A DNA stretch of 19,074 nucleotides from Tannerella sp. (lineage in GTDB: Bacteria; Bacteroidota; Bacteroidia; Bacteroidales; Tannerellaceae). Shown here in pieces: positions 2,696-13,582 of this stretch (position 1 is the first letter of the stretch; each line of letters begins with the position of its first letter). The notes beneath the pieces were generated by a model that did not search any database, was not told the origin of the DNA, and was given only the letters and a program-made list of their open reading frames with translations. The translations under genes and the position numbers were made by a program. Location of the stretch: contig JAISEZ010000262.1 of assembly GCA_031263835.1 (NCBI GenBank), forward strand, positions 1 to 19,074, in the 5' to 3' direction.

Positions 2696-2760
2696 GGGAC
2701 AAAACTGTTATGTGATACGAAATAATCAGGATGCAATAGCCTGTTTTACAGACCTGTCAG

Positions 2761-3012
2761 GAAGTTTTCCGCTTATGAGCGGAAGTTTTCCGGTTACAAC
2801 GGGAAGTTTTCTCGTCATGTCGAGAAGTTTTCTCGACATGACGAGAAGTTTTCTCGACATGACGGGAAGTTTTCTCGACATGACGGGAAGTTTTCTCGAC
2901 ATGACGGGAAGTTTTCTCGACATGACGGGAAGTTTTCTCGACATGTCGAGAAGTTTTCTCGACATGACGGGAAGTTTTCTCGACATGACGAGAAGTTTTC
3001 TCGACATGTCGA
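2761..3012. repeat. 21-bp tandem repeat array, 12 units
   Basis: Twelve units begin at exact 21-bp spacing (2761, 2782, 2803, 2824, 2845, 2866, 2887, 2908, 2929, 2950, 2971, 2992), with a degenerate thirteenth at 3013. The common unit has the core GAAGTTTTCTCGACATGAC plus two more bases. The first two units (2761-2802) are the most divergent; the later ones differ mainly at ACATGAC versus ACATGTC and at CGGG versus CGAG. Where ACATGTC occurs, the junction forms a perfect 18-bp palindrome, TTCTCGACATGTCGAGAA, at 2935-2952 and 2998-3015. The array lies 65 bp upstream of the OstA-like start codon. It is minisatellite-like; function unknown. Confidence 0.95.
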
Positions 3013-3045
3013 GAAATGTTGTGCAACGCTTCGTCATTACGGCTG

Positions 3046-3238
3046 GACGCCGTATGGCGTCCGACACGGATAACCCCGTGCAGGCGGAGCGCAACCCGGG
3101 GATAGAGACGCGATGCATCGCGTCTCTACTGCGTGGCAGTTGAACTGCTTCGCAGTTCCGGCAGCCGGATGCGGTCTCTACCCCGGGCTGCGCCTGCGGC
3201 TTGCACGGGGTTATCCGTGTCGGACGCCCTGCGGCGTC
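3046..3238. repeat. Large imperfect palindrome (two head-to-head repeat copies)
   Basis: The left arm (3046-3109) and right arm (3174-3238) are near-perfect reverse complements: GTCCGACACGGATAACCCCG on the left pairs with CGGGGTTATCCGTGTCGGAC on the right, with small differences further in. Between and overlapping the arms are a perfect 26-bp palindrome at 3103-3128 (half-site TAGAGACGCGATG) and a hairpin GAACTGC-TTC-GCAGTTC at 3142-3158. Copy A of the same element lies at about 1011-1090. Such structures are typical of REP-like or MITE-like elements; no transposase is associated here. Confidence 0.9.
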
Positions 3239-3338
3239 AGCCCGGAAAACCGTGCCGCGCACAGTATAAAGGTAGCATATATCCCTTTTCATTCTCTTTG
3301 GCGTTGGCAAATCATGCTGTTTCACAGGAACGCTTATC

Positions 3339-10207: not shown

Positions 10208-11437
10208 TCATGCTATCTGCAACCGGTTTATATCGGCACCTTCCAGTTTTTCCTTAGCATAATCCAGTGTGACGGCCAGGGTTTTCACGCTGTCCGACGG
10301 CATCTGGTACATGGCATCCATCATGACGGTCTCCACAATCGAACGAAGCCCGCGCGCACCCAGCTTCAGTTCGATGGCCTTGTCCACAACGTACTCATAC
10401 ACCTCTTCATCGAAAGTCAGCTTGATTTGGTCCATCTCAAACAGCTTAATATACTGCTTGATGATGGAGTTTTTGGGTTCCGTCAGTATCTTGCGGAGCG
10501 CCGGACGGTCTAACGGTTTCAAATAGGTCAGAATCGGCAGGCGACCGATGATTTCGGGAATCAGGCCAAAGGCTTTCAGGTCGGTGGGTGTAATGTACTG
10601 CAGCAGATTTTCGCGGTCAACAACCGTTGTTTCCTTGCTGGCGACGTAGCCGACGACGCGGGTATTCAGCCGCTGGGCGATTTTCTTTTCGATGCCGTCG
10701 AACGCGCCGCCACAGATGAACAGGATATTGCGCGTATCTACCGCAATCATCCGCTGTTCGGGATGTTTGCGTCCGCCCTGCGGCGGTACGTTCACCACCG
10801 AACCTTCCAGCAGCTTCAGCAGCCCCTGCTGGACGCCTTCTCCGCTCACGTCGCGCGTGATGGATGGATTGTCGCCCTTGCGGGCAATCTTGTCGATTTC
10901 GTCGATAAAAACGATGCCCCGCTGCGCGGCTTCCACATCGTAGTCGGCAGCCTGCAGGAGGCGGGTCAGGATGCTTTCGATGTCTTCGCCCACGTAGCCG
11001 GCTTCCGTCAATACGGTTGCATCGACAATGCTGAACGGCACGTGCAGCTTCTTTGCTATCGTACGCGCCAGCAGCGTTTTCCCCGTGCCGGTAGCGCCGA
11101 CCATGATGATGTTGGACTTTTCTATCTCCACATCATCTTTCGTCACCCGCTGCATCAGCCGCTTGTAATGATTGTAAACCGAAACCGCCAGATACCGTTT
11201 TGCCTCGTCCTGGCCAATCACATACTGGTCTAAAAAAGCCTTGATGTCTTTGGGTTTCGGCAATTCCTGCCTGTTCGGCAGGACGGCGCGTCCGCTTTTG
11301 GGCTGGTTTTCGCTGACGATGTCGTACGCCTGCCGGACACAGTCGTCGCAGATGGCTCCGAGAAGTCCGGTAATCAGCAGATTGACATTACGCCGGTTCT
11401 TCCCGCAAAAAGTACATGTTTCTTCTGTTTTTGCCAT
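10208..11437 (-). CDS. clpX: ATP-dependent Clp protease ATPase subunit ClpX
   Basis: This 409-residue protein is the AAA+ unfoldase that feeds substrates to ClpP in the cytosol. Visible elements: N-terminal zinc-binding domain with C8/C11 and C30/C33; Walker A GATGTGKT (114-121); pore loop GYVG (147-150); Walker B IVFIDE (176-180 region); the RKH loop at 223-225; and a C-terminal sensor-2 region GARGLRSI. The position normally holding the IGF loop that docks on ClpP reads VGY ([11 protein letters not shown]), a usual Bacteroidota variant. An AGGAG sequence lies eight bases before the ATG. It starts 12 bp after the ancestral (read-through) clpP stop, 45 bp after the premature one, so the two genes are probably one transcript. 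Confidence 0.98.
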
Positions 11438-11482
11438 GGATGCTCCTGCTTATTTCCGTAACATTACTTCGTCAATCATCCC

Positions 11483-12112
11483 TTATTCCCGGGCTTCTTC
11501 GGCGCTCATCCAGTAGTCGCGGTCGCTGTCTGTTTCGATTTGCTCGTAGGGTTTTCCGGAGTGGGAGGAGATGATGCTGTACAGTTCTTTCTTTATCTTC
11601 AAAATCTCCCGCACGGTAATTTCCATATCGGAAGCCTGCCCCTGCATACCTCCCATCGGCTGATGAATCATGACCCGCGCGTGTTTCAGCCCGAAACGCT
11701 TGCCTTTTTCCCCGGCAACCAGCAAAACGGATGCCATCGACGCGGCAATGCCCGTGCAAATGGTCGATACCTTGCTGCCAATGAACTGCATCGTGTCGTA
11801 GATGCCCAGCCCGGCATATACGGAACCGCCGGGCGAGTTGATATAAATGGAAATGTCCTTGCCCGGGTCGCTTGAATCCAGATAAAGCAGTTGCGCCTGA
11901 ATCACATTGGCCGTATAATCGTCAATCTGGTTTCCCAGAAAAATGATACGGTCCATCATCAGCCGTGAAAATACATCCATCTGCGCCACGTTCAACTGAC
12001 GCTCTTCAATGATGGTCGGCGATATCCAGTTACCTGTAATATTCATATAGCTGTTCAGGGCCGTATGATTCATCCCCAGATGCTTCGTTGCATAGTTTTC
12101 AAAATCGTTCAT
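11483..12112 (-). CDS. clpP: ATP-dependent Clp protease proteolytic subunit ClpP, C-terminally truncated
   Basis: This is the ClpP serine protease, which forms a tetradecameric chamber with ClpX. The catalytic triad is intact: S125 in GIAASMAS, H150 in MIHQP, and D199 in SDRDYW. The frame ends at TAA (11483-11485) after YWMSAEEARE, 209 residues. In relatives the next residues are YG(M/L)(I/V)D plus a short tail. Past the TAA the same frame reads GMIDEVMLRK and then a second TAA at 11450-11452, which would give a normal 220-residue protein. The stop therefore replaces a Tyr codon. The lost tail forms the last strand and end of the head domain in known structures, so folding or assembly could be affected. 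Sequencing error is possible. A promoter lies upstream at 12193-12225. Confidence 0.93.
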   Translation of the reverse strand: MNDFENYATKHLGMNHTALNSYMNITGNWISPTIIEERQLNVAQMDVFSRLMMDRIIFLGNQIDDYTANVIQAQLLYLDSSDPGKDISIYINSPGGSVYAGLGIYDTMQFIGSKVSTICTGIAASMASVLLVAGEKGKRFGLKHARVMIHQPMGGMQGQASDMEITVREILKIKKELYSIISSHSGKPYEQIETDSDRDYWMSAEEARE

Positions 12113-12229: not shown

Positions 12230-13582
12230 TTAAACGAATAATTTTTCAAATTCGCCCAGAGAGACTTCTTTCTCAGTGACATCCGCATTCTCCCTGACCC
12301 AGGCGGCCAGCTTCTGTTCCGTCGCGTGCTCCGCGAGCGTGTCTATGGTGTCCTTTTTCTTCAGGAGGCTTTTCGCATGTTGCATCAGCAAGTCGTTCGG
12401 CACGAAAAACAGGCCGTACTGCTCATACTGCAATTTGGCCATCAGGAATGCGGAGGCTTCCAGGTCGCGCTCTTCCACCTTCAGGTTATTGTCTTCCATT
12501 AACTGGTTTTTGATTAACTGGAGTTTAATACCTTCCATCATGGTCGGATATTCGGCCTCCACCTTTTCCGGCGTATTCTTCTCGTCCGTCGAGACGAGCC
12601 AGCGTTTCAGGATGTCGTCGGCGAAAGACAGTTCTCCGGCTTTTTCGAGGAGCAGCGCGCGCATGTCAAGCCTGAATTTGTTGTCGCTTTGCGGCTGGAG
12701 CTGCCCGTTCAGGATGACTCTTGTTCTTTCCCGGCATTCTTCTTCGCTCTTGACGACGCCCTCGCCAAACAGTTTGTCGAACAGTTCCTGATTCAGTTCG
12801 GCGGCGCAGAAACGCTCTATTTCCTGCACTTCGAAGCGGAAATCGCCGGCGAGGGTTTCGGCCGTTTCCTTGTCGATTTGCAGCAGGGAAGCAATTTCAG
12901 CCGTCGCGTCCTGATAGGCGGCTTTCGGGTTGAAGACAATCACGTCGTGCAGCCTGGCGCCGATGAACTTCGCCTGCTCCGTTTCATCCTTTATATAATG
13001 GGGCATCAGCACGGCGCCTTCCACCCGGATACCGCCTTCTTTCGGCTGACCGTCCTCCAGTTCGGCCAGCGTGCCTTTGACCAAATCGTTGGCTTCCACG
13101 TCGTCCGCGGTGACATACGAACCGCAGTTACGGCAATAATCGCTTATCTGCAGGTCTATCATCTGTTCGTCAACGTTCACCCGGTAACGGGTCAGCCTGT
13201 CGCTTTTGGTGAGCTTGACGGAGATGACCGGCGAAAGGGCGATGTCAAAAAAGAACTCGAAATCTTCTTCCGTGTCGAAGTCAATCGCTTTCTGTTCCGT
13301 CCGGTTCGGGACGGGCTGACCGAGCACCTTTAGCCCGCTGGCGTTAATGTAATCGACCAGGCCGTCCAGCACAAGCTTGTTTACTACTTCTGCCAGCACG
13401 TGTCTGCCGTACATTTTTCCAATGACCCCCAGCGGCACCATTCCTCTGCGGAATCCGGGCATATCGGCCCTTTGACGGTACTGACGCAATTTTTTATCTA
13501 CCTGCTCTTCGTAGTCTTTTTTCTCAATCTCTACTTTGATAATGCCGCTCACGGCATCATTACTTACATGTGAAATGTTCAT
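12230..13582 (-). CDS. tig: Trigger factor (ribosome-associated chaperone)
   Basis: This 450-residue protein binds near the ribosome exit tunnel and shields nascent chains. The N-terminal ribosome-binding loop is visible as GFRRGMVP (43-50), equivalent to the GFRxGKxP signature. A central FKBP-like region follows (about 155-245, with KGTLAELEDGQPKEGGI and AKFIGARLHDVIVF), then the long helical C-terminal chaperone domain, including ELNQELFDKLFGEGVVKSEEE. The length matches Bacteroidota homologues. A CRNC motif (150-153) sits where relatives lack cysteines, a minor oddity. It is the first gene of the minus-strand run, with a strong predicted promoter 50-80 bp upstream, and is followed by clpP after 117 bp. 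Confidence 0.97.
   Translation of the reverse strand: MNISHVSNDAVSGIIKVEIEKKDYEEQVDKKLRQYRQRADMPGFRRGMVPLGVIGKMYGRHVLAEVVNKLVLDGLVDYINASGLKVLGQPVPNRTEQKAIDFDTEEDFEFFFDIALSPVISVKLTKSDRLTRYRVNVDEQMIDLQISDYCRNCGSYVTADDVEANDLVKGTLAELEDGQPKEGGIRVEGAVLMPHYIKDETEQAKFIGARLHDVIVFNPKAAYQDATAEIASLLQIDKETAETLAGDFRFEVQEIERFCAAELNQELFDKLFGEGVVKSEEECRERTRVILNGQLQPQSDNKFRLDMRALLLEKAGELSFADDILKRWLVSTDEKNTPEKVEAEYPTMMEGIKLQLIKNQLMEDNNLKVEERDLEASAFLMAKLQYEQYGLFFVPNDLLMQHAKSLLKKKDTIDTLAEHATEQKLAAWVRENADVTEKEVSLGEFEKLFV

Follow-up and report, generated by a model that had tools for sequence, protein, structure and literature searches.

The clpP gene in the window, by which we mean the whole stretch of 19,074 nucleotides analysed here, is cut short by an in-frame TAA. 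Among the relatives examined this stop is private to the window genome, and it appears to be either very recent or not real. This view builds on the conserved codons that follow the stop, the purifying selection upstream of it, the ClpP-docking motif of the neighbouring ClpX, and the lack of a suppressor tRNA or an RNA structure in the sequence searched. Most likely the stop is no new biological feature but has an ordinary explanation, either a wrong letter in the sequence or a mutation that arose by chance very recently. We think it somewhat probable that the stop reflects an error in the consensus of the metagenome assembly.

The clpP gene is located between tig and clpX (Table 1), and these genes and the nearby recQ are all on the same strand. 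The reading frame begins with an ATG at 12112 and ends directly after SAEEARE, which shortens the product by 11 residues. On the minus strand, GCC GAA GAA GCC CGG GAA is followed by the TAA and then, in the same frame, by GGG ATG ATT GAC GAA GTA ATG TTA CGG AAA and a second TAA. Both the stop at 11483-11485 after SAEEARE and the resumption of the frame with GMIDEVMLRK up to 11450-11452 had been described in a sequence-only reading of this DNA, and both are borne out at these coordinates. An ATG is found one codon past the first stop. The second TAA is separated by 12 nucleotides from the start codon of clpX at 11437. We found no further stop within the 209 codons of clpP, and no internal stop in the 12 other window genes checked.

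Table 1. Features of the clpP locus in the window
Feature	Position	Strand	Description	Basis or remark
clpP as it stands	11483..12112	-	209 aa, TAA at 11485-11483	ORF list, NCBIfam NF011091
Private in-frame TAA	11483..11485	-		Aromatic residue in 109/109 other matching loci
Ten conserved codons and second TAA	11450..11482	-	GMIDEVMLRK	Second TAA lines up with the stop codon of 220-aa relatives
clpX	10208..11437	-	Intact, 409 aa	V-G-Y at the presumed ClpP-docking loop
tig (trigger factor)	12230..13582	-	Intact, upstream of clpP	ORF and family match

The shortened protein is still recognized as ClpP. It scores 410.4 bits against NCBIfam NF011091 (cut-off 361), covering positions 1-209 of 221, and 254.4 against TIGR00493, under the cut-off of 308.6 for that family. 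In the Pfam family CLP_protease (PF00574) it reaches profile position 171 of 182, while its full-length relative P0004 reaches position 180. Solved ClpP chains run beyond the stop point; chain 1tyf_A has 193 residues, with a match only to 180. Ser125, His150 and Asp199, which we take to be the catalytic triad, are all present and invariant in an alignment of 35 sequences (the window protein and 34 relatives), so that the three catalytic residues do lie upstream of the stop, as first noted. The C-terminal stretch that carries the pocket residue for ClpX docking is absent. Counting from the conserved Tyr, codon 217 aligns with Ile190 of Chlamydia trachomatis ClpP2 and with Leu189 of Escherichia coli ClpP, whereas the protein ends at residue 209. 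Compared to other Bacteroidales ClpP (NF011091, PF00574, tig-clpP-clpX operon), the window protein is thus alike in sequence, catalytic residues, gene order and, apart from the tail, length, but it stops 11 residues early at an otherwise aromatic codon. A structure prediction of P0004 gave a mean pLDDT of 39.5, and no conclusion rests on this model.

We read the position of the stop in 111 loci, 110 of which gave a match (L002 did not; L006 and L078 are duplicates of each other). In the 109 other matching loci the codon encodes Tyr in 106 and Phe in three (L107, L108 and L109), in agreement with the proposal that a conserved Tyr codon has been replaced by TAA. A full ClpP match, defined as an E-value below 1e-70, was found in 57 of the 61 genomes searched, including the window genome, and in none of the 56 others does it contain a stop. 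Full matches are present in 33 of the 36 other genomes of the genus. Of the remaining three, G012 has no match, and G022 and G031 have only a weak match of a second, approximately 600-aa, PF00574 kind. In the order as a whole, 380 of 393 genomes have a ClpP match at 1e-50, and six of the 325 good-quality genomes have none. Among the best 150 matches listed in this search two were flagged, the window genome and G072, where the TAG is the natural end; broken copies with lower scores may lie beyond these 150. It should be noted that G072 has three strong ClpP matches, and that the copy read (L215, on contig C386) stops directly after VIDKVI and is shorter than usual.

The tail motif, an aromatic residue followed by Gly, two hydrophobic residues and Asp, is kept in 115 of the 120 homologues listed out of 8000 scored, the window protein being one of the 120. 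The other four exceptions (P0084, P0097, P0099 and P0100) have altered, longer tails. Relatives whose ClpP normally ends at EEARE had been named as a finding that would speak against a lesion, and we found none in the loci, genomes or listed homologues. In P0084, P0097, P0099 and P0100 unrelated sequence replaces the tail after TAEEA, which could reflect inserted or rearranged sequence or joins made during assembly; for P0100 there are records on 10 contigs. Two further homologues, P0001 (327 aa) and P0003 (275 aa), have an internal partial duplication, each on one contig.

The ten codons past the stop are conserved. The nearest relative reads GMIDEVMIRK where the window reads GMIDEVMLRK; of the ten codons, one differs synonymously and one by a conservative replacement. 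On this comparison their likeness to the relatives exceeds chance. Compared to the nearest syntenic relative (locus L209 of genome G024), clpP has a dN of 0.033 and a dS of 0.582, a ratio of 0.057. The corresponding ratios for clpX, recQ and tig are 0.063, 0.039 and 0.20. By these estimates clpP upstream of the stop is under strong purifying selection. Polarised counts of nonsynonymous and synonymous changes in clpP are 7/17 on the window branch and 1/13 on the sister branch (p 0.216). When the count is extended to all 220 codons and other outgroups are used, they are 11/25, the stop counted among the 11, and 2/10. Seven other genes together gave 154/194 on the window branch and 109/250 on the sister branch; as their nonsynonymous share is likewise higher on the window branch, clpP does not stand out. 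A pseudogene under relaxed selection is not supported, given the ratio of 0.057, the lack of a second stop in 209 codons and the p value of the branch difference.

The gene of the partner protein, clpX, is intact. The V-G-Y stretch of the window ClpX, which we take to be the ClpP-docking loop, is shared with L209, L210, L211, L032 and L034, and reads V-G-F in L212-L214. Together, the dN/dS, the branch counts and this motif argue that clpP worked until very recently, or still works. The selection, the downstream codons, the register of the second stop and the ClpX motif make the surroundings of the stop look like those of a working clpP-clpX operon.

Draft metagenome-assembled genomes can carry consensus errors, and the window genome is such a draft, with 331 contigs, a total of 2,051,865 bases and a completeness of 63.12%. 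Close protein relatives carry the source name 'Tannerella sp.' and are metagenome genomes too; for the window genome we would guess at an origin in a termite or cockroach gut. In favour of an error we counted this fragmentation and the absence of the stop from all 56 other genomes in which the match is full and from all 109 other matching loci. As is seen with such errors, the draft is incomplete and one conserved gene in it bears a single lesion that relatives lack. In brief, we infer that a base of the stop codon is probably wrong; the living strain would then have an ordinary 220-aa ClpP that works with ClpX. No unusual error rate is needed for one such event in a scan of many genes, since 71 of the 1881 possible single-base changes in clpP create a stop. 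A rate near one in ten thousand would suffice and is compatible with the counts given below.

The sampled sequence is otherwise clean, which counts against an error; the window genome differs from the typical case in having no excess of errors in the rest of the sample. We compared 41 contigs of the window genome with 800 kb of the one-contig genome G030, from the same genus, and with six syntenic contigs, and sorted stop events as internal or not by alignments and ORF lists. The 17,249 aligned codons held seven stop events, namely the clpP stop, five before a start codon and one natural end, which leaves the clpP stop as the only one judged internal. The reverse comparison covered 16,103 G030 codons, and its two stop events fall in a frame that runs antisense to the RRM gene; a third comparison, of the syntenic contigs, gave a raw count of three in 24,040 codons. 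Three breaks of the frameshift type were found; all three lie in the window, at the edges of genes rather than within them, and G030 had none. At 2611 sites that are otherwise invariant among seven genomes, the window genome has 19 private residues, one of them radical, compared to 19, 19, 26, 44, 46 and 201 in the other six. Among 20 ABC-transporter domain matches from the whole genome one has an internal stop, and it scores below the family cut-off. Thus no excess of private lesions was found in these codons and sites, and by these counts the assembly is not of poor quality overall. In length the window contig exceeds each of the 40 other contigs of the genome compared, and this does not suggest poor coverage. 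The counts bound the error rate loosely, at about one in a thousand. A codon-usage scan for split genes gave 17 uninformative candidates, its training frames perhaps including antisense ones, and was replaced by the homology comparison.

The same clean surroundings favour a second explanation, that a nonsense mutation has truly arisen, very recently, in the strain or its population, leaving a 209-aa product and ClpXP proteolysis lost or strongly reduced. We regard this as possible, though less so than an error; the weights given to the two are our judgement, drawn from how seldom clpP is broken in relatives. A ClpP ending at residue 209 is without the docking-pocket residue, and by analogy a real stop would likely cost the protein its partnership with ClpX, and perhaps its folding. 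One study reports that ClpX-driven degradation of GFP-ssrA was lowered when Ile190 of C. trachomatis ClpP2 was changed to Thr, and names Leu189 as a pocket position (PMC6773864). Side chains of the ClpX IGF-loop pack into hydrophobic clefts of ClpP, according to another (PMC7112951). Firmicutes under acyldepsipeptide selection are reported to survive with spontaneous premature stops in clpP, some by single-nucleotide exchange and taken to abolish function (PMC7496096). A premature clpP stop is common to those mutants and the window; the mutants were selected and sequenced in isolates, whereas the window stop comes from one draft metagenome genome with no known selection. The six order genomes without a match suggest that a strong ClpP may be missing from some genomes, although gaps would explain them too. 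The lean towards nonsynonymous change in window-branch clpP also fits a real mutation, but the seven other genes share it. Against a real mutation, neither another broken clpP among the relatives listed nor a further lesion in clpP itself was found.

If the stop is real, the window encodes a natural ClpP with an active site but without its partner-docking end, for which we found no other case among the genomes examined. If the stop is an error, a single base in a draft metagenome genome has made a conserved housekeeping enzyme look truncated. It is improbable, in our view, that the only known ClpP of a gut Bacteroidales strain was deprived of its ClpX-docking end in nature not long ago, so that an intact ClpX is cut off from proteolysis and the catalytic residues are kept, or that leaky termination yields a mix of short and full-length protein.

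A decaying clpP backed by a paralogue had also been proposed. We found no second clpP in the available 63% of the genome, a result limited by this incompleteness, and upstream selection is intact, so this proposal is not sustained. The only other PF00574 match, on contig C306, was rejected (28.8 bits, profile positions 24-98). It lies in a 617-aa frame, probably a signal peptide peptidase, of a kind seen at about 600 aa in many relatives. A search for Lon gave no hits, which is uninformative in a 63%-complete genome. A phage origin of the clpP region was rejected after no match was found among phage records.

Read-through of the stop, or a ribosome restart just after it, would give some full-length or two-piece ClpP, and we hold this to be very unlikely. 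The codons conserved up to the second TAA and the ATG past the stop would fit, but an error or a recent mutation predicts conserved downstream codons equally well. None of the 17 tRNAs found has a stop-reading anticodon, a negative that the 63% completeness of the genome limits, the RNA at the stop has no stable structure (z +0.99), and the window has no Rfam match. Of the four readings first offered, sequencing error and real truncation therefore both stand, while paralogue-backed decay and read-through are left unsupported. A functional short ClpP that is normal for the lineage is more doubtful still; all catalytic residues are upstream of the stop, but the tail motif is nearly general among the listed homologues, and none of the four other exceptions ends here. 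Least likely of all, and likewise unsupported, is a reassignment of TAA to Tyr: TAA does stand where relatives have a Tyr codon, but seven of the 12 other window genes checked end in TAA, clpP itself uses TAT and TAC for Tyr, no other internal stop occurs in the aligned codons, and the tRNA-Tyr found has the anticodon GTA.

The window also carries peptidylprolyl-isomerase-like genes, an OstA-like gene, a gene for an RRM protein, rpoN, gcvH, purE and ispG. Upstream of the OstA-like gene, at 2760-3015, a 21-nt unit that is in part self-complementary (ACGAGAAGTTTTCTCGACATG) is repeated in tandem approximately 12 times. Its core pattern has nine matches there, none elsewhere in the genome and none in the 37 other genomes searched. 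A dispersed, largely palindromic repeat at 3030-3250, also present at 1006-1074, is matched 89 times when both strands of the genome are searched. Close to the contig end, 18817-18869 and 18972-19024 form a 53-nt inverted repeat that is 85% complementary.
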